Assembly: GCA_030694935.1 (NCBI GenBank) | Contig: JAUYUA010000046.1 | Span: 1 to 47,225, forward strand | Length of the DNA stretch: 47,225 nucleotides | Source: Lutibacter sp. | GTDB taxonomy: Bacteria; Bacteroidota; Bacteroidia; Flavobacteriales; Flavobacteriaceae | Reading direction: 5' to 3' | Shown: piece by piece, positions 8,494 through 46,951 of the stretch | Position numbering within the stretch: position 1 is the first letter of the stretch | Layout: each line of letters opens with the position of its first letter | Made by a program: the position numbers and the translations under genes | Notes under the pieces: generated by a model | Databases searched by the model: none | What the model saw: the letters and a program-made list of their open reading frames with translations, nothing else | What the model was told of the DNA's origin: nothing

Positions 8494-9067
8494 TTTAAAA
8501 AATTTATGTCCAAAAATACAGAATATTGTATCAAAAAAGTACTTAAAGTGCCTAAAATTGAAAAGTTTGAAGACCGAAGACCGAAGTCAGAAGTTGTTTT
8601 TGCATTTGCCGGATTAATTAATCTTTTTTAATCATTATTGTTAGAAAAAAATACATAAAGGTTGATTAATCTCAATTTAAATGGGGCTTGAGAAACAGTT
8701 CGCCCCGAAGGGCTTGTTTTTCAAGGAAAATCTATTTACTGCAAACAGGTTGTTCCGATGGAACAAAAAAAGCTCCGTAGGAGCGAACTGTTTGTAGAAT
8801 ATTGTGAAAAGTCAGGTTTAAAGCCCCATCGGGGCGACCTGTTTGTTTTGAGAAAATTTAACTTGACAATAATGTTATGGAAATTAAAAATCTTATGTGA
8901 AGCAAATTTTTGTAATTTTGAACAAAATAGCAAGCGCATCATGAAAATTTAATTTTTTTCATGGGTTGAATCCGACTTTATGTCGGGTTTTTTAGTTTTG
9001 AAATGTGGGTGGAATAAGGGCGTTTTTTTAGTTGAAAGACGCGTTTGTTGAATTTTAAATTCTAACC
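8494..9067. other. Intergenic region with hairpin repeats
   Basis: No convincing gene. It holds a short patch of ACCGAAG-type heptamers (about 8570-8595), the hairpin cluster described separately at 8693-8845, and AT-rich sequence. A weak hairpin near 8955-8990 (CCGACTTTATGTCGG followed by six T) may terminate transcription on the plus strand. Confidence 0.5.
8693..8845. repeat. Cluster of four short hairpin units in inverted arrangement
   Basis: Four copies of a 5-bp stem, 3-4 nt loop and a tail resembling GACCTGTTTG: GCCC-CGAA-GGGC (8702-8713) and GTTCC-GAT-GGAAC (8752-8764) face left, GCTCC-GTA-GGAGC (8771-8783) and GCCCC-ATC-GGGGC (8823-8835) face right. The stems differ in sequence but keep pairing, which is the pattern of REP/PU-type elements. 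Confidence 0.7.
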
Positions 9068-9180
9068 GCGTTAGGGATTATAGCGAAAATACTTTTATTG
9101 CCATTTTGCAATAAAAGATTGCAGCGAAAAGCCCGGCCCGCCAGCCTGCCTGCCGGCAGGCAGGCTGGCGGGGAACGCCC
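9068..9180 (+). repeat. Two-hairpin REP/MITE-like element, copy A
   Basis: It starts GCGTTAGGGATTATAGCG and ends GAACGCCC. Hairpin 1 is CTTTTATTGC/GCAATAAAAG. Hairpin 2 is the long GC palindrome centred near 9155 (CCGCCAGCCTGCCTGCC with its complement). Copy B at 40848 shares the ends and the junction but has different stems. Confidence 0.8.
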
Positions 9181-10636: not shown

Positions 10637-10895
10637 ATGCAGTCAAATATGATCCAAACTTTCTGTTTCAAACTTCAAACTTCGGTCTTCGGACTTCAAA
10701 CTTCGGTCTTCGGTATCCGTCTCCCGACTTCTTTACCCTTTAGCTTTTTTAATCACTTCCATTACTTTCTTGCAGTCTTGCAGTCAAATACAATCCAAAC
10801 TTTCTGTTTCAAACTTCAAACTTCGGTCTTCTGTCTTCGGACATCCGTCTTCGGACTTCGGACTTCCGTCTTCGGTCTTCCGTCTCCCGACTTCT
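10637..10895. repeat. Heptanucleotide repeats and duplicated end of the peroxiredoxin gene
   Basis: Two blocks, about 10642-10770 and 10783-10915, begin with near-identical text (GCAGTCAAATA, CCAAACTTTCTGTTTC) and run through 7-bp repeats of CTTCGGT/CTTCCGT type. Both end in the sequence that codes for the last residues of the peroxiredoxin (CCCTTTAGCTTTTTTAATnAC). The first block is therefore a non-functional copy of the gene's 3' end. Confidence 0.8.
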
Positions 10896-26164: not shown

Positions 26165-26343
26165 TTCTGTCTTCCGTCTTCGGTCTTCCGCCTTCCTTCT
26201 TCCATCTTCCGTCTTCCGTCTTCTGTCTTCCGTCTTCTGTCTTCCTTCTTCCGTCTTCTGTCTTCCGTCTTCTGTCTTCCGTCTTCCGTCTTCGGTATTC
26301 AGACTTCGGTCTTCGGTCTTCAGACTTCGGTCTTCAGTCTAAC
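26165..26343. repeat. Tandem heptanucleotide repeat
   Basis: About 25 near-exact 7-bp units of the form GTCTTCC with G/C/T variants at the last position. It lies between udk and the transporter, both minus strand. The unit length is not a multiple of three and no conserved frame runs through it, so it is not coding. Confidence 0.9.
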
Positions 26344-36780: not shown

Positions 36781-38049
36781 TTGTTCGAAATCAATAAAAG
36801 TACGGTGTTTTATCAAAATCAAGAAATCTTCAATATTCTTTTTGAAGCCATTCCGGAAGGCATTATTATTGTTGATGAAAATACAAATATGGTTGCCGCA
36901 AATACTGCAGCAGAAAAAATGTTTGGCTATCATCAAGGAGAATTGACGAATCAGCATTTAAATATACTGGTTCCTGTAAGATACATAACCACCCATAAAA
37001 ACCAATTTTACTATTTTACAAGCAAAATTAAAGACAGAAAGAAAACAAGCGGATTGTACTTATTTGGCTTAACAAAAAATAACCATGAATTTCCTCTTGA
37101 AATTGCGCTAAATCCTTTTAACATTTATGAAAAAGAATACATTATGGCGCTGGTGATTGATATGACTGTAAGAAGAGAAACCGAAAAAAAGTTAGATTCT
37201 TTAAAAGTTGTTTTGGAAGAAAAAGTTAAAAAAGGAACGGCCGAATTAGAAAATACCATCAAACAATTAAAGGAAGTAAACCGCAATTATAAAATAGAAC
37301 TAAAAAGAAGAATTGAAATAGAAAGCAAGCTTAAAGATTCCTTAAAAAAAGAAAAAGAGCTCAATGAATTAAAAAGCAAATTTTTGTCGCTTGTTTCGCA
37401 CGAATTTAAAACGCCTTTAAGCGGAATTTTAACCTCGGCCATTTTATTGGAAAGATACCAGCTGACCGAGCAACAGGAAAAAAGGGAAAAACATTTAAAA
37501 ACAATCACAGACAAAGTTCATTATCTAAACAACATTTTAAACGATTTTATATCCTTGGAGCGTTTAGATGCTAGCAATCAAAATTATAAATTCAAGATTT
37601 TTAATTTAAGCAAAGTCATTAATGAAGTGGTTTACAATGCCAATATGCTTTTAAAAAGAGGGCAACACATCAATATTCCACAAAACTCATCCGATTATAT
37701 GTTGTATCAGGATGAAAAAATTTTAGAACTTATATTGTCTGTCGTCATTTACAATGCCATAAAATATTCTCCCGAGCGTACAGATATTGATTTAGAAATT
37801 TCTAAAACCCAAAAAAATATTATTTTCACCATTACCGATCAAGGAATTGGAATTCCTAAAAATGATCAAAAATTTGTATACAATCGCTATTTTAGGGCAG
37901 AGAATGTATTAAATATTCAAGGTACGGGCATTGGATTAAACATTGTTAAAGAACATTTAAAAAACTTAGGCGGAACCATTCGATTCACAAGCACAGAAAA
38001 TAAAGGTTCTGTATTTTTTGTTGAATTACCCATAATAAAAGAATTATGA
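36781..38049 (+). CDS. Cytosolic PAS histidine kinase
   Basis: 422 residues from a TTG start (no ATG is near). No membrane helix. The PAS domain occupies about 15-130; it has L-V-P-x6-H72, aligned by eye with the heme-ligand histidine of FixL (LMPEPYRHEHDGY in Rhizobium), although the FixL Arg that contacts oxygen is not seen. A coiled coil (135-200) leads to the H-box H207 (SLVSHEFKTPLSG), N-box N325, G1 DQGIGIP at 353-359 and G2 GTGIGLN at 381-387. Its stop overlaps the response regulator start by 4 bp, so they form one unit. Gas or redox sensing is a guess from the PAS alone; many PAS domains with this His bind no heme. Confidence 0.85.
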   Translation: MFEINKSTVFYQNQEIFNILFEAIPEGIIIVDENTNMVAANTAAEKMFGYHQGELTNQHLNILVPVRYITTHKNQFYYFTSKIKDRKKTSGLYLFGLTKNNHEFPLEIALNPFNIYEKEYIMALVIDMTVRRETEKKLDSLKVVLEEKVKKGTAELENTIKQLKEVNRNYKIELKRRIEIESKLKDSLKKEKELNELKSKFLSLVSHEFKTPLSGILTSAILLERYQLTEQQEKREKHLKTITDKVHYLNNILNDFISLERLDASNQNYKFKIFNLSKVINEVVYNANMLLKRGQHINIPQNSSDYMLYQDEKILELILSVVIYNAIKYSPERTDIDLEISKTQKNIIFTITDQGIGIPKNDQKFVYNRYFRAENVLNIQGTGIGLNIVKEHLKNLGGTIRFTSTENKGSVFFVELPIIKEL

Positions 38050-39101
38050 AAAAGGTTTTATTAATAGAAGATGATATTGTTGTAAGAGAAAATACAGCAG
38101 AGCTTTTGGAATTGGCCAATTATAAAGTTTTTACTGCCGCAAACGGCAAAATTGGCGTTGCTGAAGCCAAAAAACAGCTGCCCGACATTATTTTATGCGA
38201 TATTATGATGCCCGAATTAAATGGCTACGGTGTGCTTCAAATACTCTCAAAAGAAAAGGAAACCAAACATATTCCCTTTATTTTTTTATCGGCAAAAACA
38301 GAACATAAAGACATTCGCAAAGGAATGGATATGGGTGCCGATGATTATATCACAAAACCTTTTGATGAATCGGAACTGTTTAGCGCCATAGAAAGCAGGC
38401 TAGCAAGAGTAGCCATTATTAAAGAAAATGAGGAAAAAGAAAGGAAATTTGAACTAGATTTCAAGGACAGCCAACTAAAAACACTAAACCAGCTTAAAAA
38501 TTTCTTTGTAGAAAATGTGGAAGAATTCTCCTTTATACCCGGCGAAATTATTTATCATGAAGGCGATAACTCCAATTTTGTATTTTTAGTAAACGAAGGC
38601 ATTGTGAAAACCTTTAAAATTGATGAACAAGGAAAAGAGTTAGTTACCGGCTTGCATAAAGAGAATGACTTTTTTGGTTTTACCTCGTTCTCAAACAATA
38701 TTGCTTACCAAGAATCGGCTGCGGCCATTGAAAATGTAAAAGTATCACGGTTGTTAAAAAATGAATTCAAAAATATTTTACAAAAAAATCACGATGTTAC
38801 TTTTGAATTAATAGATTATATCACCGACAATGTTTCAGAAATTAAAGACCAATTGCTGCAAATGGCCTATAGTTCGGTCCGGAAAAAAACAGCAAATACC
38901 ATTTTGCAGTTTTCTGAAAAAATGAAAAAATCCAATAACGACAATCCTAAAATATCAAGAACCGATTTGGCAGGGATTGCAGGAATTGCCACTGAAACTT
39001 TTATCAGAACACTTTCCGATTTTAAAAGAGACGGACTTATTGAAATCGAAGGAAGAAGCATTAAAATTCTGAATATTGAGAAGCTGAAAAAAGTTTTTTA
39101 G
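38046..39101 (+). CDS. Response regulator with CRP/FNR output domain
   Basis: 351 residues. Receiver at 1-120 (acidic D8/D9, phospho-acceptor D52, K104), linker, cyclic-nucleotide-binding-like beta roll at about 160-245, dimer helix, and a C-terminal winged HTH (302-345). Recognition helix T316-E317-T-F-I-R321 has the Glu and Arg that FNR uses to read TGA. There is no Cys cluster for Fe-S, and the cNMP-binding pocket motif is incomplete, so the beta roll probably only relays phosphorylation. It is coupled to the PAS kinase and is the best candidate to bind the TTGAT-N4-ATCAT boxes around it. Confidence 0.9.
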   Translation: MKKVLLIEDDIVVRENTAELLELANYKVFTAANGKIGVAEAKKQLPDIILCDIMMPELNGYGVLQILSKEKETKHIPFIFLSAKTEHKDIRKGMDMGADDYITKPFDESELFSAIESRLARVAIIKENEEKERKFELDFKDSQLKTLNQLKNFFVENVEEFSFIPGEIIYHEGDNSNFVFLVNEGIVKTFKIDEQGKELVTGLHKENDFFGFTSFSNNIAYQESAAAIENVKVSRLLKNEFKNILQKNHDVTFELIDYITDNVSEIKDQLLQMAYSSVRKKTANTILQFSEKMKKSNNDNPKISRTDLAGIAGIATETFIRTLSDFKRDGLIEIEGRSIKILNIEKLKKVF

Positions 39102-39503
39102 CCAAATTGTTGAACTTTAATCCTATTCCCAGCCTCCCGTACTAATCCCGATAGATCGGGACGAGACGGGCTTTTCGGTCTTGATATCTATCGCGAGAAA
39201 GGGAGTTTGATTTGAAATTAGCATAATATTTACAGCAATTGTTAATTCGAACCTTAACTTCCCTTATTAGCATTGACCGATTTTCATTAATCTTTTATTT
39301 TTTTCATGTTTTTTACACTCCCCTAGCCCCGCTTCGGCTCCACTTCGGCTACGCTCAGTGACCGCGCTCAGCACAAGTCTCGAGAGGGGAATTAATCGCG
39401 ATTAATTTCCAAACTTCTAACTTCAGTCTTCGGACTTCCGGCTTTTAACTTTTAACTTTTAACTTCTAATATTTAATATTTTCCAATATTTAATATTTTC
39501 AAA
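39102..39503. other. Intergenic region with palindromes
   Basis: No gene. It contains a cruciform-like sequence CCCGT-N3-AATCCCGAT-AG-ATCGGGAC-N-ACGGG (39136-39170), a CTTCGGCT/AGCCGAAG-type tract near 39331-39350, and a short patch of heptamer repeats (39416-39440). Confidence 0.5.
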
Positions 39504-39547
39504 TTGATATATATCATTTTACATTAAAATATAAGAATATAATTTTA
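39504..39547 (+). promoter_or_regulatory. FNR-like box D and promoter of the stress protein gene
   Basis: TTGAT-ATAT-ATCAT (39504-39517), TAATTTTA (39540-39547), 29.5 bp apart. The start codon is 23 bp after the -7 element. Confidence 0.85.
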
Positions 39548-39569
39548 ATCGTAATAATAAATCAAACCC

Positions 39570-40415
39570 ATGAAAAATATTTTAATACCCACCGATTTTT
39601 CGGAAAACTCCTGGAACGCAGTAAAATATGCATTAGAATTTTTTAAAGACACCCCTTGCGATTTTTACTTGTTACATGTCACTTTAATATACAACTATGC
39701 CAGTGGCGAATCACCGGTAATGCCGCTTCCGGCTATTGAAGTCATTGACAAAACAATCTTAAAACAAGCAAAAACCAATTTAAAAAATTTGTTAAAAAAA
39801 ATTGAATTCTTGCCGCACAATCCCAAACATCGCTTTTATACGCTTAACAATTATGATTATTTTATTGATGCCGTAAAAGCCCATGTTGCTGAAAAATATA
39901 TAGACCTTATTGTGATGGGCACAAAAGGCGCTTCGGGCCTAAAAAAAGTGATGATTGGCAGCAATACCGGCGATTTAATTACCCGGGTAAAATGTCCAGT
40001 TTTGATTGTTCCCGAAAATGCGGTATTTAAAGAAATAAAGGAAATTGCATTTCCAACAGACTACCATCTTTTTTATCAAACCAAAATTTTGAACAGTATT
40101 TTAGAATTTGTTAAAATGAATAAATCAGCTTTAAGGATTGTGCATATCGCTAAAAAAGATGAGGAAGTAACCGATTTTCAGTTTGAAAATAAAGAATTTT
40201 TAAAAAATTTCTTTGCTGAAGAAAAGCATAGTTTTCACAGAATAACCAATAAAAAAATTGAAGATGGCGTTCAATGTTTTGTGGAAAGCAGAGACATTGA
40301 TATGATTATTATGATTGCCAAGAACCTTAATCTTTTTCAACGTATTTTATTTAGGCCAACCGTTGAAGAGATTAGTTATCACACCGATATTCCGTTTTTA
40401 GTTTTGCATGAATAG
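39570..40415 (+). CDS. Universal stress protein, two tandem Usp domains
   Basis: 281 residues: two Usp domains (about 1-145 and 150-281). The first begins MKNILIPTDFSENSW and has the ATP-type loop GTKGASGLKKVMIGSN; the second is more divergent (EIAFPTDYHLFY, then IMIAKNLNLFQRILFRPTVE). Tandem Usp proteins accumulate at low oxygen or in stationary phase in many bacteria. FNR-like box D with TAATTTTA lies 53 bp upstream. Followed by a small membrane protein gene, probably co-transcribed (18 bp gap). Confidence 0.9.
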   Translation: MKNILIPTDFSENSWNAVKYALEFFKDTPCDFYLLHVTLIYNYASGESPVMPLPAIEVIDKTILKQAKTNLKNLLKKIEFLPHNPKHRFYTLNNYDYFIDAVKAHVAEKYIDLIVMGTKGASGLKKVMIGSNTGDLITRVKCPVLIVPENAVFKEIKEIAFPTDYHLFYQTKILNSILEFVKMNKSALRIVHIAKKDEEVTDFQFENKEFLKNFFAEEKHSFHRITNKKIEDGVQCFVESRDIDMIIMIAKNLNLFQRILFRPTVEEISYHTDIPFLVLHE

Positions 40416-40433
40416 CTGTTAAACACTGCCATT

Positions 40434-40826
40434 ATGGATGAAGTGTCTATTTTTTTAGCCAAATTTTGGGGATGGTATTTTATTATTTTCTTTTTAATTT
40501 TAAGCTTGAACCCAAAAAGAATTGTTCAGATTATTAAAGATTTGGAAGATCAGAAATTTGTGATTGTCATTTCTTTTATGGCCATTGTAATTGGATTGCT
40601 TAATGTTTTATTCCACAATATTTGGGAAGACGACTGGCGTTTAATTATCACATTGATAGGCTGGATAACACTATTTATTGGCCTGTCGCTGTTTATTTTT
40701 CCAAAACGAACCGTTTTATGGCTCGATTATCTCAATATTAAATTTGTGCAGGTAATTTATATGATGCTTTTTTTTGTAGGCTTGTTTTTGCTGAATATGG
40801 GTTATGGGATTGTTATTTTCGGCTAA
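40434..40826 (+). CDS. Small membrane protein co-transcribed with the stress protein
   Basis: 130 residues with four helices (about 12-25, 42-60, 68-85, 105-127). LFHNIWEDDWRLIITLIGW and LFIFPKRTVLWLDY are its most regular parts. No family recognised with confidence; it resembles small Bacteroidetes membrane proteins near Usp genes. Confidence 0.65.
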   Translation: MDEVSIFLAKFWGWYFIIFFLILSLNPKRIVQIIKDLEDQKFVIVISFMAIVIGLLNVLFHNIWEDDWRLIITLIGWITLFIGLSLFIFPKRTVLWLDYLNIKFVQVIYMMLFFVGLFLLNMGYGIVIFG

Positions 40827-40847
40827 GTTCTATTTATAACAGCATTT

Positions 40848-40948
40848 GCGTTAGGGATTGCAGTGAAAATCCTTTTTTGATTCGCCCTTTTGGTGAATCA
40901 AAAAAGATTGTAACGAAAAGCCCGCCTGCCTTATCGGCAGGAACGCCC
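40848..40948 (+). repeat. Two-hairpin REP/MITE-like element, copy B
   Basis: It starts GCGTTAGGGATTGCAGTG and ends GAACGCCC. Hairpin 1 is a long TTTTTTGATTC-GCC/GGT-GAATCAAAAAA stem; hairpin 2 is CCTGCC-TTAT-CGGCAGG. It may terminate the Usp operon. Compare copy A at 9068. Confidence 0.8.
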
Positions 40949-41226
40949 AAAATAACGATATATAAATTGCTGTTCTTATTAGAATTAAGCCTTATTTTCC
41001 AATAAAAAAATTAAGATAAAAAATATTCAAAAACTGATAACAATCATATGCCAAATTGATGCATATCATTTCTCAACAGTAAATTTGGTGTTATTTTTAC
41101 ATCATAATAAAAAATAAAAGTTCATTGATTTTATAGAAAACAAAATTTCCCCACGTATGTAAATTTGCATTTTGCATAACAATAAAAGCCTAATTTGAAG
41201 AATTTAAGGTTTACAAATTAAATCGA
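40949..41226. other. Leader of the tandem RNA array
   Basis: Non-coding. It contains FNR-like box E at 41056 and, from about 41104, a predicted 120-nt leader without structure I can support. No ORF of useful length. Confidence 0.5.
41056..41099 (+). promoter_or_regulatory. FNR-like box E and promoter of the tandem RNA array
   Basis: TTGAT-GCAT-ATCAT (41056-41069), TATTTTTA (41092-41099), 29.5 bp apart. The nearest ORF is 1 kb away, so the direct product is the array. Confidence 0.8.
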
Positions 41227-41411
41227 TTTTAGTTTTGTCTTAGAAATAAGGTGACGTAAGAAATTATTTAAAAATTGCAGAGAACAGCTTAATTTCTTCA
41301 AGATAGACGCAGGAGGTTTCCACCTCCTGCTTCCATCAAAAAACAGGTCTCCATTGTTGCAAAATAATGCAGATCAAAGAAGTGTTTTAAGGTATTGATT
41401 TAACAAAGCTA
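41227..41411 (+). repeat. Array unit 1
   Basis: P2 is GCAGGAGGT-TTCC-ACCTCCTGC (41309-41330), a perfect 9-bp stem. P3 is CATTGTT-GCAA-AATAATG (41352-41369). The P1 arms are AAATTA/TAATTT. Confidence 0.65.
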
Positions 41412-41597
41412 ATTTTAGTATTGTTTTAGAAATGAGATGCTATGATAAATTAGTTAGCGTTAAAAACTAACTTAACCGCTTCAAGAAGCAGGAAACTGAA
41501 GACTTCCTGCTTCTACTAAAAAGGGAGTAGATCTTCATTATTGAAAAGTAATAACGATTGAAACTGGGAGATTTAGGAGCTTTTTTGAGGTTGGCTT
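41412..41597 (+). repeat. Array unit 2
   Basis: P1 AGTTAG/CTAACT around 41452-41472. P2 AGAAGCAGGAA/TTCCTGCTTCT (41484-41494 with 41504-41514), 11 bp, loop of nine. P3 CATTATT-GAAA-AGTAAT with its last base pair lost. Confidence 0.65.
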
Positions 41598-41780
41598 GTT
41601 TAAGGATTGTCTTAGAAATAAGGTGATGTAAAAAATGAGTTGAACGTAGAAAAATTAACTCAATCTCTTAAGGAAACAGGAAGTTACGGCTTCCTGTTTC
41701 TATTCAAAAAATAGATTTACATTATTGAGAAGTAATGCAAATCGAAATGAAGGGTTTAAAGTTGTTGTTTGGTTAAAACA
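41598..41780 (+). repeat. Array unit 3
   Basis: P1 TGAGTT/AACTCA. P2 GAAACAGGAAG/CTTCCTGTTTC (41673-41683 with 41690-41700), loop TTACGG. P3 CATTATT-GAGA-AGTAATG. Confidence 0.65.
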
Positions 41781-41959
41781 GTTTTAATGTTATTTTAGAA
41801 ATAAAATACTATGAAAATTGGTTGAGAAGACCCAACTTAATCTCTTCAGGAAACAGGAAGTTACGGCTTCCTGTTTCTAATAAAAATATAGATTTACATT
41901 GTTGAAAAGCAATGCAGGTTGAAATGAAGATTTTCAAGTTCTTGTTTAGTCAAAACTCA
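41781..41959 (+). repeat. Array unit 4
   Basis: P1 is weak (GTTG/CAAC near 41820-41834). P2 is identical to unit 3 (41850-41877). P3 CATTGTT-GAAA-AGCAATG, in which the fifth pair is G:C against A:T in unit 3. Confidence 0.65.
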
Positions 41960-42085
41960 TTTTAGTATTGATGTTATTTTAGAGATAAATCAATATAAAA
42001 AATTAGTTTAGCGTTATAAAACAGACTTAATCTCTTCAGGAAACAGGAGGTTGCGACCTCCTGTTTCTATTTAAAAAATAGTCAG
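41960..42085 (+). repeat. Array unit 5 (truncated)
   Basis: P2 GAAACAGGAGGT-TGCG-ACCTCCTGTTTC (42040-42067), a perfect 12-bp stem. P3 is replaced by AATAG-N7-CTATT, and the unit ends 25 bp before the GTG of the next gene. Confidence 0.65.
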
Positions 42086-42110
42086 TTGCTATTAATTAAA
42101 TCTATATGTT

Positions 42111-42503
42111 GTGAAAACAATCAGCATCTTTTTGGTTATTTTATTTGTGGCCTTGCAATCATTTGGCCAAAATCCATCACTTTCTAAAGAAGATTATTTA
42201 CAAAAAAGCAAAAGTCAAAAGAAAACAGGCTGGATTTTACTTGGCGGAGGAACAACGATTGCAGTTGTTGGCGCCATTATATTTGATGAATCGGATGACT
42301 GGAGTTCATCAGACGCAGGCGGTTTTATGATGCTGGGTGGTGTGGCGGCGGGTTTGGCCAGCATTCCATTTTTTATAAGTTCTGCAAAAAATGCAAACAA
42401 AGCTGCCTCCATCAGTTTTAATTATCAAAAAGCATATTTTCCGCAACAAAATACTTTTGCGGTAAAACAGCAACCGGCCATCACCTTGAGAATTCCATTA
42501 TAA
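42111..42503 (+). CDS. Small exported membrane protein of unknown function
   Basis: 130 residues from a GTG start; no other start fits. Signal peptide ending near residue 20 (SFGQ), then LSKEDYLQKSKSQKKTGWILLGGG, followed by two Gly/Ala-rich membrane segments. This layout (YLxKSKxQK, GWxLLGGG) recurs in Bacteroidetes proteins of unknown role. It starts right after the fifth unit of the RNA array, so it may be on the same transcript. Confidence 0.7.
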   Translation: MKTISIFLVILFVALQSFGQNPSLSKEDYLQKSKSQKKTGWILLGGGTTIAVVGAIIFDESDDWSSSDAGGFMMLGGVAAGLASIPFFISSAKNANKAASISFNYQKAYFPQQNTFAVKQQPAITLRIPL

Positions 42504-42661
42504 CCCCATTTTCAAAAATAAAGACACATCATTAAGTTATATAATCATTTCAACATAAGGAATTTAACGTCTTTCAATTTAGTTTTAACATTTTATATTG
42601 AAATAAATGTCGTAAATTACAGGTTTACTATAACAATCATAAATTTAAAAACACTAAAAAA

Positions 42662-43051
42662 ATGGACTATTACTATTCAACCATATTAAACAACATCACA
42701 TTTGAGGAAGCCATAGAAAAAGTAACTGCCGAACTTCAAAAAGAAGGATTTGGCGTACTAACAGAAATAGATATAAAAGCCACCTTGAAGAAAAAATTAG
42801 ATGTCGATTTTTACAATTACAGAATTTTGGGAGCTTGCAACGCACCTTTCGCCTATAAAGCTTTAAAAGCCGAAGACAAAATTGGAACGATGCTTCCGTG
42901 CAACGTTATTGTCCAGGAAAAAGAACCGGGAATTATTGAAGTTTCGGCCATCAATCCCATTGTTTCCATGCAAGCTGTCGTAAATGAATCTTTGGCGCCA
43001 ATTGCTTTGGAAATAGGCGATAAACTTAAAAAAGTTTTGGCAAATTTGTAA
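42662..43051 (+). CDS. DUF302 protein
   Basis: 129 residues of the DUF302 family: TFEEAIEKVTAELQKEGFGV, then RILGACNAPFAYKAL, then LPCNVIVQEKEPG. These small proteins bind anions or hydrophobic ligands and are common in stress and hypoxia loci. No clear FNR-like box at the usual distance is seen before it. Confidence 0.85.
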   Translation: MDYYYSTILNNITFEEAIEKVTAELQKEGFGVLTEIDIKATLKKKLDVDFYNYRILGACNAPFAYKALKAEDKIGTMLPCNVIVQEKEPGIIEVSAINPIVSMQAVVNESLAPIALEIGDKLKKVLANL

Positions 43052-43111
43052 ATTTTAAAAAATTTATCGCAAAAATTTTATCCAAAAAATTTTGTTTTAG
43101 TTTACCTGTAT

Positions 43112-43155
43112 TTGACATTTATCATTGGCAGTGATGAATGTATTGAATATCTTTA
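43112..43155 (+). promoter_or_regulatory. FNR-like box F and promoter of the hibernation factor gene
   Basis: TTGAC-ATTT-ATCAT (43112-43125), TATCTTTA (43148-43155), 29.5 bp apart. The predicted start near 43160 gives a 31-base leader. Confidence 0.8.
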
Positions 43156-43190
43156 GGGATCAATATCATTTTAATTTAAAAATAATTATT

Positions 43191-43493
43191 ATGGAAATTA
43201 AAATTCAATTTGTGCAAGCGCCAAAAAGCGAAGCCGTAGAATCATTTGTGATTAAAAAATTACTTAAAATGTCGGAAAGATATGAATGGTTGATTAGGGC
43301 TGATGTTTTTTATAAATTAGAACCTGACACCAAAGGAAAAGGGAAAATTTGCGAAATAAGGCTAAGCCTTCCCGGTCCAAGAATTTTTGCTTTTTCTGAT
43401 GAAGAAAGTTTTGAAGCCGCCACCGATGAAACATTACGCGATATAGACAAACAGCTTCAAAAACGCAAAAGCGAAATGAAGCATTACTTATAA
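43191..43493 (+). CDS. hpf: Ribosome hibernation promoting factor (HPF/RaiA, short type)
   Basis: 100 residues from ATG at 43191; in-frame upstream codons to 43125 overlap the promoter and are rejected. Pattern of ribosomal S30AE domain proteins: MEIKIQFVQAPKSEAVESFV, then EIRLSLPGPRIFAFSDEESF, then DIDKQLQKRKSEMKHYL. It binds the decoding centre and stores ribosomes in 100S dimers or inactive 70S. Short form without the dimerisation tail. Transcribed alone from box F, so it is probably switched on by the local regulator. Confidence 0.9.
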   Translation: MEIKIQFVQAPKSEAVESFVIKKLLKMSERYEWLIRADVFYKLEPDTKGKGKICEIRLSLPGPRIFAFSDEESFEAATDETLRDIDKQLQKRKSEMKHYL

Positions 43494-43724
43494 GTGGGTA
43501 TTTTAAAAAATAAAGATTGAAAAAAGGATAAAAGGAACTATATTTTGGAAGTTCAATATTCATAAAGCCCAGAAATCGGGTATTGCAGCCTTGTTTTTTA
43601 GATGTCGTTTTATTCCATAATCCAACGCCAAAGTTTGAAAATTGAAATCCAATTATTAAATCCCCAAAGTGGAAGTCTGTTTGTTTTTAAAAATTTAACC
43701 TTACTGCAATGTTATTAATTATAA

Positions 43725-44378
43725 TTATTTAGAATTTTTAAAATTAAAATCCTCATTCGCTTTTTTTAACAATGCAACAACTTCTTGGTCGTTTACTTGG
43801 TCAAACTCTTCATAAAACTGTCCGACCGCCTGAAAATTTACGGGCGCCGACAAGCAAATAACTTCATTCACCTCGGGCATTTCCCTTATTTTTCTCAATG
43901 CAGAATTTGGCGCAACGGGCAAGGCAACAACCATTTTTGAAGGTTTTTGAAGTTGGATTAATTGAATGCAGGAAATAATGGTATTTCCTGTGGCAATGCC
44001 ATCATCAACCAAAACAACTACTTTGTCTTTGAGTGACATTGGTTTTTTTTCGCCATAATACAACTGATGGCGCTGTTTTAACAAAGCCCTTACCTGTTCG
44101 GTCTCATCATAAATATATACGGGAGAAACTTCTTTTGCGGCATCACTTAAAATACTGTTTTCTAAAGTAACGGCACCAATGGCATATTCTTTATTGAAAG
44201 GATGACCAATTTTTTTTGAAAGCACTATTTCTAATGGAATATTTAATTTATTGGCAATTTCATAGCCAACCGGCACACCGCCTCGTGGAATTGCGACAAT
44301 AACCACCTCATTATTGTCCTTATAATTCGTTAATTTGTTTGCCAACAATTTGCCTGCTTCTTCCCTATTTGTAAACAT
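43725..44378 (-). CDS. Phosphoribosyltransferase
   Basis: 217 residues of the type I PRTase fold. PRPP loop VVLVDDGIATGNT at 121-133 with D125-D126. The N-terminal part VAIPRGGVPVGYEIA at 28-42 matches the PRTase found fused to dienelactone hydrolase in other bacteria. Its start overlaps the hydrolase stop by 14 bp. In mycobacteria a fused form of these two domains belongs to the DosR dormancy regulon. Substrate unknown. Confidence 0.85.
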   Translation of the reverse strand: MFTNREEAGKLLANKLTNYKDNNEVVIVAIPRGGVPVGYEIANKLNIPLEIVLSKKIGHPFNKEYAIGAVTLENSILSDAAKEVSPVYIYDETEQVRALLKQRHQLYYGEKKPMSLKDKVVVLVDDGIATGNTIISCIQLIQLQKPSKMVVALPVAPNSALRKIREMPEVNEVICLSAPVNFQAVGQFYEEFDQVNDQEVVALLKKANEDFNFKNSK

Positions 44379-45045
44379 TACGTTCAGTTTTAGCTTTCTT
44401 TTTTAAATACTTGTCAAACCATTCCGCAGTAAGTTTGGCCACAATTTCGAGTTTTCCTGCTTCCGGAAATAAATGCGTTGCGCCTTCAACAATTTTTAAT
44501 TCACAAATGCCACCAATCGCTGCTTTTGCTTTTTTATTCAATTCTATGACCACATCGTCATCGCCCCCAACTATTAAAAGCGTAGGTGTTTTTATATCCT
44601 TTAAAACCGGCATGGCCAAATCTGGACGGCCACCTCTTGATACAACGGCTTTTATGGTGTTTCCCATTTGGGCGGCGGTTTTTAAAGCAGATGCTGCGCC
44701 GGTGCTGGCTCCAAAATATCCTATTGGCAGTTTTTTCGTTTCTTTGTAATTTATTGCCCAATTTGTGACTTTAACCAAACGTTCGGTAAGCAATTCAATG
44801 TCAAAACGATTTTCATAAATTAAATCCTCTTTGGCGGTTAATAAGTCGAAAAGCAAACTGGAAAAACCTTCCTCCAACAACAAACTTGCAACATAATTAT
44901 TTCTGATGCTTAGCCTGCTGCTGCCGCTTCCATGCGAAAATAAGATGATTCCTTTTGGCTCTTCAGCAAGTCTTAAATTTCCTTTTAAAAGCACTTCGCC
45001 AATAGCAACATCCACTTCTTTAAAAGTTTGTTTTATGCTTTTCAT
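44365..45045 (-). CDS. Alpha/beta hydrolase (dienelactone hydrolase type)
   Basis: 226 residues. HGSGSS near 38-43, nucleophile Ser114 in G-A-S-T-G, acid in GGDDD near 160-164, His191 in GATHLF. Together with the overlapping PRTase gene it forms a split version of a known fusion protein. Its ATG is at the end of dispersed element copy 4, so it may be translationally controlled. Substrate unknown. Confidence 0.85.
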   Translation of the reverse strand: MKSIKQTFKEVDVAIGEVLLKGNLRLAEEPKGIILFSHGSGSSRLSIRNNYVASLLLEEGFSSLLFDLLTAKEDLIYENRFDIELLTERLVKVTNWAINYKETKKLPIGYFGASTGAASALKTAAQMGNTIKAVVSRGGRPDLAMPVLKDIKTPTLLIVGGDDDVVIELNKKAKAAIGGICELKIVEGATHLFPEAGKLEIVAKLTAEWFDKYLKKKAKTERNVYK

Positions 45046-45154
45046 CTGTTTATCTTTTATTTTTTATTGGTACAGATGCTGCCTGCCTGTCCGGTAGGTA
45101 AATTCGCCATTAATCATTCTACTGTGTATCAAAATTTGTAATGGCTTGTTTCAT
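45043..45154 (-). repeat. Start-codon-linked dispersed element, copy 4
   Basis: Minus strand: begins ATGAAACAAG at 45154 and ends ACAGATG at 45043-45049, the start of the hydrolase gene. It has the CATCTGT partner and a partial GC palindrome (about 45080-45100). It sits between DUF2267 and the hydrolase in what is otherwise a compact operon. Confidence 0.85.
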
Positions 45155-45174
45155 AAATTCATTTTTTAGCTTGT

Positions 45175-45621
45175 TTAAAACATGGCATTCTGGTAAACAA
45201 TAGACTTTAAATCTTTTGGAAGCACCGTTCTAAGATCCTCCAATTCACCTAAAGAAACATATTTGCGCAACAACATAAATGTTGAATTGATATAATTTTC
45301 TGCAACTTCTTCAGATTCAAAATCATTTAAAGCAGTTACACCGTTCAATTCTCGAATTAAATCAACAAAATCGGTCATGCTTTTTACTTTTTGCTTTTTG
45401 CGTGTCGTCCATTTGTTTACATAAACCGCTTTTAAGAACATCGGGAACTGTGAAATTAACTGCAAAGATTCCTCAATGGTGATCACTTCTCTAAGTCCGT
45501 GTAAAATAGAAGACAAAATTCTTCCTGCTTTATCGGTGTCATTAGGCATATTTATTTTTTTTGCAAATTCTTTCAAAAATGCATTGCCTTCTTTTGCGAA
45601 TTGATTAAAATTTAGTGCCAT
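45175..45621 (-). CDS. DUF2267 protein
   Basis: 148 residues of DUF2267: AGRILSSILHGLREVITIEE, then LPMFLKAVYV-type text (QFPMFLKAVYVNKW), then LREL near the middle. All-helical cytosolic protein often found in stress operons, sometimes with Usp proteins. Second gene of the minus-strand operon behind box I, 16 bp after the WG-repeat gene. Confidence 0.8.
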   Translation of the reverse strand: MALNFNQFAKEGNAFLKEFAKKINMPNDTDKAGRILSSILHGLREVITIEESLQLISQFPMFLKAVYVNKWTTRKKQKVKSMTDFVDLIRELNGVTALNDFESEEVAENYINSTFMLLRKYVSLGELEDLRTVLPKDLKSIVYQNAMF

Positions 45622-45637
45622 AACTTATGTTTTTTAG

Positions 45638-46252
45638 TTAAAACTGATGTATTTCCCACTTTTTATTTTTGGTTTTTACTGCAACCATATTTGGTGCAAT
45701 AAATTTCGATTCAATAATAGGTATGCCATTTTTATAATTGGCCGGTACATTTTTTCTTGGATTGTATAAATATTTTACCAATTCCCCAGCAGTGTTGATC
45801 ACATATTCTTCCATAATATTGGAAACGACAGCTTTATTAAGCACTACATTGAATCCGATAGAATCCTTTGAAGTCAGTACCACAATGGCATAACCATTAG
45901 AAAAATTTGTGGCATTTAAAAACTGGGGCTTAATGACTTCTACGCCTTTTTCATTGATAAAACCATAGTAATAAGTGTCTCCCATTAATTTTCTGATCAA
46001 GCATCTGCCATCATTAAAAACAGGATAAGAAATTGTTTGGTTTAAAGAATTTAATCTGTTGGTTAACACCAAATCAGACCTGAAATCGATAATCTTTTTA
46101 CCTTCTTTATCAATAAAAGCCCACTGATTTGCTTTTTTTATTGCTGCAAAATCGCCCTGGAAAGAATAAACCTCATCTATGTCGCTTAAAATTTGTGAAA
46201 AAGCAACAGCATAAAATCCGAAACAAACTATTAAAATGAGTAATTTTTTCAT
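45638..46252 (-). CDS. WG-repeat exported protein
   Basis: 204 residues from ATG at 46252; a GTG at 46273 would add seven polar residues. Signal peptide ends near residue 19 (AFSQ). WG/KWG repeats: QWAFIDKEGKKIIDF, YYGFINEKGVEVIKPQF. Such repeats form beta structures on the cell surface. First gene of the box I operon (WG, DUF2267, hydrolase, PRTase). Confidence 0.75.
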   Translation of the reverse strand: MKKLLILIVCFGFYAVAFSQILSDIDEVYSFQGDFAAIKKANQWAFIDKEGKKIIDFRSDLVLTNRLNSLNQTISYPVFNDGRCLIRKLMGDTYYYGFINEKGVEVIKPQFLNATNFSNGYAIVVLTSKDSIGFNVVLNKAVVSNIMEEYVINTAGELVKYLYNPRKNVPANYKNGIPIIESKFIAPNMVAVKTKNKKWEIHQF

Positions 46253-46274
46253 GACTATTAATTTATTATTCACA

Positions 46275-46318
46275 TAAAGCTAGGGTTTGTTTAAACTTTA
46301 AAAAATGATTTTCCTCAA
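46275..46318 (-). promoter_or_regulatory. FNR-like box I and promoter of the WG-repeat operon
   Basis: On the minus strand: TTGAG-GAAA-ATCAT (46318 to 46305), then TAGCTTTA (46282 to 46275), 29.5 bp apart. The left half-site has one change (TTGAG). Confidence 0.7.
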
Positions 46319-46470
46319 TCTTATGGTATTTCAATTATGATGTAGTGCGTTATTTTTCAACAATTTGCAGTTCACCATCAGAAACAGATTCTACTTCAAT
46401 AAAAATTGGGGAAAATGATAAAAAATTATCAATTTTTTATTGAATGAAGTGCCGATTTTTTAAGATTCAT

Positions 46471-46515
46471 TTGATATATATCATTTTTTATAAAAATTAT
46501 AATGAATTACTTAGT
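46471..46515 (+). promoter_or_regulatory. FNR-like box G and weak promoter
   Basis: TTGAT-ATAT-ATCAT (46471-46484), identical to box D. The best -7 candidate is TACTTAGT at 46508, one base further than in the others and a poor match. Confidence 0.6.
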
Positions 46516-46537
46516 GATGAATTAAAAAACGACAGCA

Positions 46538-46951
46538 ATGGAATCGAACATCGTTTACAAATCGTTTTCCAAGGATAAAACCATTGAGGAATTGCTTTAC
46601 AATATTGCCTTATGGACTTCAGAGTATGCTTTTATCAATTTTGAATTGGCTTTTATAAAAAGGCTCATAAAAGCCTATCCGTTCTCAGCGACCATCCCAA
46701 ATTTGTATGAACGCCTGCAGCTGTTTATTTTAGAACTTGATAATTTTGCAGAGGCAAAAAACAACATTCTTGTTAAAATTAATGATTATGACAAAAGATT
46801 AATAGAGCGTGAAGAAACCAAAGCGCTAGCCTCCAATCATTTATACCTGATTGAATATGAAAAACTGGCAGAAGAAGTTTTTATGTATTTAAAACACTAC
46901 AAAAATTTAAAAATTCGAATCTTTGAATATATAAACGGACTCATCAATTGA
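46538..46951 (+). CDS. Unknown helical protein
   Basis: 137 residues, almost entirely helical, with no signal peptide or membrane segment. Leu/Lys/Glu patterning (RLQLFILELDNFAEAKNNIL, EETKALASNHLYLIEYEKLA) suggests a coiled-coil bundle. No family recognised. Box G lies 67 bp before its start, so it is probably part of the regulon. Confidence 0.7.
   Translation: MESNIVYKSFSKDKTIEELLYNIALWTSEYAFINFELAFIKRLIKAYPFSATIPNLYERLQLFILELDNFAEAKNNILVKINDYDKRLIEREETKALASNHLYLIEYEKLAEEVFMYLKHYKNLKIRIFEYINGLIN

Follow-up and report, generated by a model that had tools for sequence, protein, structure and literature searches.

The window, a 47,225-nucleotide stretch of a Lutibacter sp. genome, carries an array of five tandem units on the + strand (41161–42069) that we hold with little doubt to belong to a family of structured RNAs. 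The overall explanation we consider probable is that the array represents a regulatory RNA family not described before, which belongs to a stress regulon and perhaps acts by binding protein. Units are ~175 nt long and are separated by linkers of 9–13 nt. The preliminary description of this DNA had also counted five tandem copies, which are present, but it placed the start of the array at 41227, 66 nt downstream of the true start of unit 1 at 41161. In the correct register the P3 hairpin opens and the P2 hairpin closes each of the five units, an order that explains why the last copy had seemed to lack P3.

Unit 1 (41161–41335), whose P3 is divergent, scores 91.1 bits against the covariance model and folds with z −3.1 relative to dinucleotide shuffles. 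It is followed by unit 2 (41345–41515; 148.6 bits, z −5.1), unit 3 (41529–41702; 154.8 bits, z −3.9), unit 4 (41713–41879; 154.9 bits, z −7.7) and the last, unit 5 (41890–42069; 170 bits, z −5.2), with the bit scores of units 2–5 coming from a model whose training set includes these same units. Pairwise identity among units 2–5 is 67–78%. Consecutive units are joined by linkers at 41336–41344, 41516–41528 and 41703–41712 and, from unit 4 to unit 5, by an A-rich one at 41880–41889; the median gap is 9 nt over 87 gaps in the tabulated arrays.

On the + strand each of the five units folds better than its shuffles, with z ranging from −3.1 to −7.7; 2/200 shuffles were as low as the real fold for unit 1 and none for units 2–5. 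The − strand also beats shuffles (z −3.3 to −6.2), as expected for hairpin-rich DNA. Because G-U cells far exceed A-C cells in both counts made (270 versus 53 and 251 versus 47, roughly five to one), the alignments point to the + strand as the RNA. As had been proposed, no protein frame accounts for the array: the open reading frames (ORFs) overlapping it reach at most 42 aa, the longest being on the − strand. A protein-coding repeat was rejected, there being no open frame through the window units. Among relatives, a six-frame ORF of ≥100 aa overlaps the array in 3/53 loci (L128, L088 and L107).

Each unit consists of a GNRA-capped hairpin (P3), a ~100-nt rod with a second GNRA cap, and a UNCG-type hairpin (P2). 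The structure, comprising P3, the closing helix P0, the inner hairpin P4 and P2, was drawn from 44 internal same-genus units. It is exemplified by unit 4, where P3 occupies 41714–41743 (+ strand; GNRA loop GAGA), the rod 41748–41848 (+; closing helix P0, inner helices and an apical P4 with GNRA loop GAAA) and P2 41849–41878 (+; UNCG loop UACG). P2 and its base changes are as first described, and the changes reported for P3 are correct, with the loops GCAA, GAAA, GAGA and GAAA found in the sequence. The second GNRA-capped hairpin, UUUA-GNRA-UAAA, had not been recognised. Counts over 60 of the 65 unit rows, with partial or short rows excluded, place a GNRA loop in P3 of 38/60 units and in P4 of 46/60, its letters varying, and a UNCG loop in P2 of 25/60; in single-sequence folds a long-range closing pair appears in all 60 full-length units. 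The inner flanks of the rod pair better with their own partner (−9.8 kcal/mol) than with a swapped one (−6.3 kcal/mol), a difference reached in 0/5000 permutations that were not corrected for relatedness.

A further helix, P1, had been proposed from arms that differ entirely yet pair. Counted exactly as proposed, it pairs in 68.7% of cells against 65.6% when shuffled, with 25 double-change cells against 18.4, while a variant sharing four pairs with that form gives 87.1% against 84.0% and 5 double-change cells against 1.3. Both forms thus display a weak pairing excess, but P1 gains no clear support and competes with P0, which, unlike this rival helix, covaries clearly. P1 is weakly supported at best.

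Covariation was assessed with an APC-corrected G-test and a Fitch-based tree null applied to all column pairs, a procedure similar to R-scape but written in-house. Standard pairs make up 91.6% of cells in the same-genus set, compared with 87.7% in shuffled and 41–54% in slid controls, and double changes occur at 25/45 pairs compared with 14.4 after shuffling. In the all-pairs test the same-genus units by themselves yielded one column pair above the tree-aware null, and for this reason other genera were brought in. From 84 matches, 48 other-genus units were retained after exclusion of antisense matches, those below 47 bits and one partial match, and these were aligned by MAFFT blind to structure (26,565 column pairs). 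Because the units were found with the structure model, the set is biased towards those that fit it, and the structure columns were placed with help from the model's own alignment; the alignment used for counting was not fitted to the structure.

In these other genera 82.0% of cells are paired, compared with 71.5% shuffled and 44–56% slid. Double changes occur at 41/44 pairs (29.5 shuffled) and in 272 cells (105.7 shuffled). Under the tree-aware null the best six of the 26,565 column pairs all belong to the structure. Two of these six reach E<0.05 when all pairs are considered, and a test restricted to the structure places 10/44 pairs at E<0.05. Pairs thus exceed a phylogeny-aware null once homologues from outside the structure building are added. 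The idea that selection acts on RNA structure, making the array a candidate new RNA class, is supported by this covariation, by the kept GNRA loops and by the lack of an Rfam match.

As the preliminary description anticipated, related genomes hold more units, both in the same genus and in other genera. A first covariance model (R1) was positive in 25/38 same-genus genomes, the window's own included, and in 48/299 sampled Flavobacteriaceae genomes at E≤0.001. A second model (R2), built from 65 units, was positive in 47/299 Flavobacteriaceae genomes at E≤1e-4, representing 41/236 genera. In an order-wide sample R2 detected 8/346 genomes, all Flavobacteriaceae, and among 295 genomes sampled across the class it recovered only the window's own genome and one weak match in another family (G663, E 6.5e-4); absences in these large searches are soft because strict filters were used there. 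In the window's own genome R2 found the five array units and no further copies.

The arrangement is mostly tandem, with at least two units in 39/46 tabulated arrays and a range of 1–6 units. In four arrays compared across species, units at the same position share 86% identity between species, compared with 71% between positions within one array. Units thus keep their positional identity between species, which implies that the array predates those species and is not a fresh satellite. The array at locus L015 is nearly homogenised, and locus L088 (G004:C8:394000-413900) is divided into two sub-arrays, both of which have a box and a promoter-like element of their own.

Upstream of unit 1 on the + strand lie two CRP/FNR-type palindromes. 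The farther box, TGATAACAATCA (41035–41046), and the nearer box, TGATGCATATCA (41057–41068), are spaced 22 bp apart, a distance shared with other same-genus arrays, and the nearer box is the one closest to a promoter-like element. This putative −7-like element, read from the leaders, is TATTTTTA (41092–41099, +), 23 nt past the nearer box; it resembles TAnnTTTG, which we take to be the Bacteroidetes −7 consensus, and the same position at locus L088 reads TATATTTG. The leader (41100–41160, +) carries AAAAGTTCATTGA at 41116–41128. Motifs of this AA(G/C)GTTC(A/T)T type, located past the promoter-like element, occur within 150 nt before the first unit in 17/19 same-genus and 17/32 other-genus arrays.

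The 300 bp preceding the first unit contain an exact TGATN4ATCA box in 19/19 same-genus arrays and 19/32 other-genus loci, and the looser TGAN6TCA in 51/51 arrays, being the sole box form in 13/32 other-genus loci. Background in the same loci is 0.086 per 300 bp for the exact and 0.21 for the looser form. The arrays in L007, L083, L087, L089, L091–L096 and L100 were not part of this test, and the box lies farther off at L105 and L117, where an upstream unit escaped the model. The whole window contains 9 exact boxes compared with 1.41 expected.

The opposite end of the array is also distinctive. The tail past the last P2 (42070–42082, +) is U-rich in most arrays and moderately so in the window. 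Of 46 tabulated arrays, 39 contain two or more units; in 33 of these 39 the most U-rich, terminator-like tail is that of the last unit, with ties in 3, compared with 12.9 expected, and the mean U-tail excess of the last unit was reached by 0/20,000 permutations. Together, the upstream box and the most U-rich tail on the last unit make the arrays look like single transcripts, and on these sequence signals the array is very likely to be one regulated transcript. The short motif GCTATTAAT(C/T) follows within 80 nt of the last unit in 10/26 arrays, namely at 42088–42097 in the window and in L102, L103, L104, L105, L106, L108, L110, L116 and L131.

Genes encoded on the same strand precede the array. 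They include a PAS histidine kinase (36781–38049), a response regulator (RR_Crp; 38046–39101) that combines receiver, cNMP-binding and HTH_Crp domains and is a candidate activator of the array, a universal stress protein (Usp; 39570–40415) with a TGATN4ATCA box at 39505, and a small protein without a Pfam or NCBIfam family (p40434; 40434–40826) that is the array's upstream neighbour and whose homologues adjoin many arrays in other genera. Downstream in the window are a family-less small protein, DUF302, S30AE (ribosome-hibernation-type), PRTase, DLH and DUF2267; the small protein (42111–42503) is the second without a Pfam or NCBIfam family. Much of this gene set recurs beside many, though not all, other-genus arrays. 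The interval 36781–46951 holds a stress or dormancy-like gene set with several TGATN4ATCA boxes, one that we presume to resemble dormancy regulons elsewhere.

RR_Crp homologues (E≤1e-60) occur in 138/299 Flavobacteriaceae genomes. They are present in 44/48 R1-positive compared with 94/251 R1-negative genomes (Fisher p 8e-13, uncorrected for relatedness), and in 46/47 R2-positive genomes, the exception being G174, but also in 92/252 R2-negative ones. At least 28 of the 47 R2-positive genomes, including the window's own, have RR_Crp within 5.5 kb of a unit, while among the matches listed 19/47 have none within that distance. In other genera the exact box precedes homologues of the kinase (13/23), p45638 (11/15), DUF2267 (5/10) and Usp (26/74), and is rare before RR_Crp (1/27), p40434 (3/17), DUF302 (1/10), PRTase (0/10) and DLH (2/9), where 6.8% of random stretches provide the comparison rate. 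Judging from boxes and neighbourhood, the array is likely a member of the regulon that the neighbouring PAS kinase and RR_Crp control.

Comparison with Rfam 15 at the gathering threshold matched a tRNA and two Flavo-1 motifs in the window, none inside the array. With E relaxed up to 1, eight matches appeared across the array region and 19 further loci, and no family was reached in the array. These comprised Flavo-1 outside the array and seven sub-threshold matches, including L20_leader in two loci (32.5 and 30.2 bits versus 58.7). Among the papers listed by searches of open-licence literature, with subscription journals outside their scope, none describes this array. CsrB/RsmZ-type RNAs titrate protein through repeated hairpin modules, and the repeated hairpin modules of the array could likewise offer several protein binding sites, but its modules are ~175-nt units of three domains. 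CsrA was not found in the window's own genome (97% complete; control positive 3/14), which speaks against placing the array among RNAs of that type. Riboswitches are leaders, and the array is like tandem riboswitches and the STAXI motif in being a tandemly repeated structured RNA, but it has no Rfam match. In PMC2864571, which describes 104 RNA motifs, STAXI is reported as a pseudoknot that occurs in repeats close to DNA-handling genes.

In the mechanism we propose, a promoter bearing one or two CRP/FNR-type boxes would drive a single ~1-kb transcript that spans the five ~175-nt modules. The internal P2 hairpins, which have less U-rich tails, would be read through, and transcription would stop at the final one. 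Regulon partners suggested by box and neighbourhood would include universal stress proteins, DUF302 and the ribosome-hibernation-type factor. The multiplied modules may then present several equal binding sites to a protein, allowing titration or scaffolding under stress. We arrive at a multivalent, protein-binding reading because fold and loop class (two GNRA loops and one of UNCG type) are kept, no single-stranded seed is evident and modules are multiplied. Such an RNA is the mode of action we favour over a base-pairing small RNA, but tentatively, at slightly less than even odds. More speculative, and doubtful in its full form, is a new Flavobacteriaceae RNA device, stress-switched and multivalent, whose repeated three-domain modules might bind or arrange either a global RNA-binding protein or ribosomes at rest. 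It would form the RNA branch of a dormancy regulon governed by a two-component system of CRP type.

The main rival to protein binding is a multicopy array of trans-acting small RNAs, cut into modules at the A-rich linkers and pairing with mRNAs in the manner of FopS. The units are paralogous with sequence drift, the A-rich linkers of ~9 nt would suit such cutting, and the own genome encodes one RRM protein; RbpB, the partner of FopS, is an RRM-type protein. However, most of each unit is paired in predicted folds, and the conserved UAUUNUUU is paired inside the rod in many units, so that the consensus offers no evident shared seed. FopS RNAs of Bacteroides thetaiotaomicron are, like the array units, multicopy paralogous Bacteroidota RNAs with a terminator-type 3′ hairpin, and according to PMC11697453 they comprise 14 members at separate loci, in which a single-stranded 5′ seed is combined with one terminator hairpin, and bind RbpB. 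By that description the window units, being tandem, with three structured domains and no evident seed, fall outside the FopS family. We regard the base-pairing alternative as rather unlikely, though a serious competitor.

A cis-acting leader that controls the downstream gene, as a tandem riboswitch or an attenuator would, agrees with the next ORF being co-directional in 39/53 loci (six-frame ORFs) and only 42 nt away in the window. Yet that ORF is convergent in the other 14/53, and there the array is not simply a 5′ leader. The U-rich tail past the last unit and the same-genus arrays L081, L082, L084 and L090, which lack kinase-regulator neighbours, also speak against such a role, which is unlikely as a general rule.

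More improbable again is a 6S-like decoy of RNA polymerase. 6S RNA is rod-shaped, and each unit contains a long irregular rod of fitting shape and size; 6S-Flavo (RF01685) is likewise a flavobacterial RNA. The own genome, however, has a separate 6S-Flavo gene on another contig, the units have no Rfam 6S match, and the modules are tandem. Finally, a decaying satellite or mobile repeat with hairpins as by-products, as tandem repetition and the nearly homogenised array of L015 might suggest, is scarcely credible given other-genus covariation beyond the tree-aware null, only five array units in the own genome by model R2, a neighbourhood that recurs across genera, and no blastn match of the window array in plasmids or phages.

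To our knowledge, few multi-domain bacterial RNAs have strong covariation and no known function. The probable regulatory RNA family described here occurs in 41/236 sampled genera of a large environmental family, mostly as several tandem modules. The operator of the presumed stress regulon can be read from sequence, so that the RNA family offers a way to study post-transcriptional control in flavobacteria and is testable in culturable strains.

Two other features of the window concern different elements. Two Flavo-1 motifs (RF01705), a flavobacterial RNA motif that the array units do not match, lie at 40843–40931, just upstream of the array, and at 9060–9142. A Flavobacterium psychrophilum transcriptome study (PMC9723704) covers Flavo-1 and Rfp RNAs and found no clear function for Flavo-1. 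Short tandem repeats occur in the window at 26165–26340 (TTCCGTC ×25) and at 10655–10894 (CTTCGGT-type).
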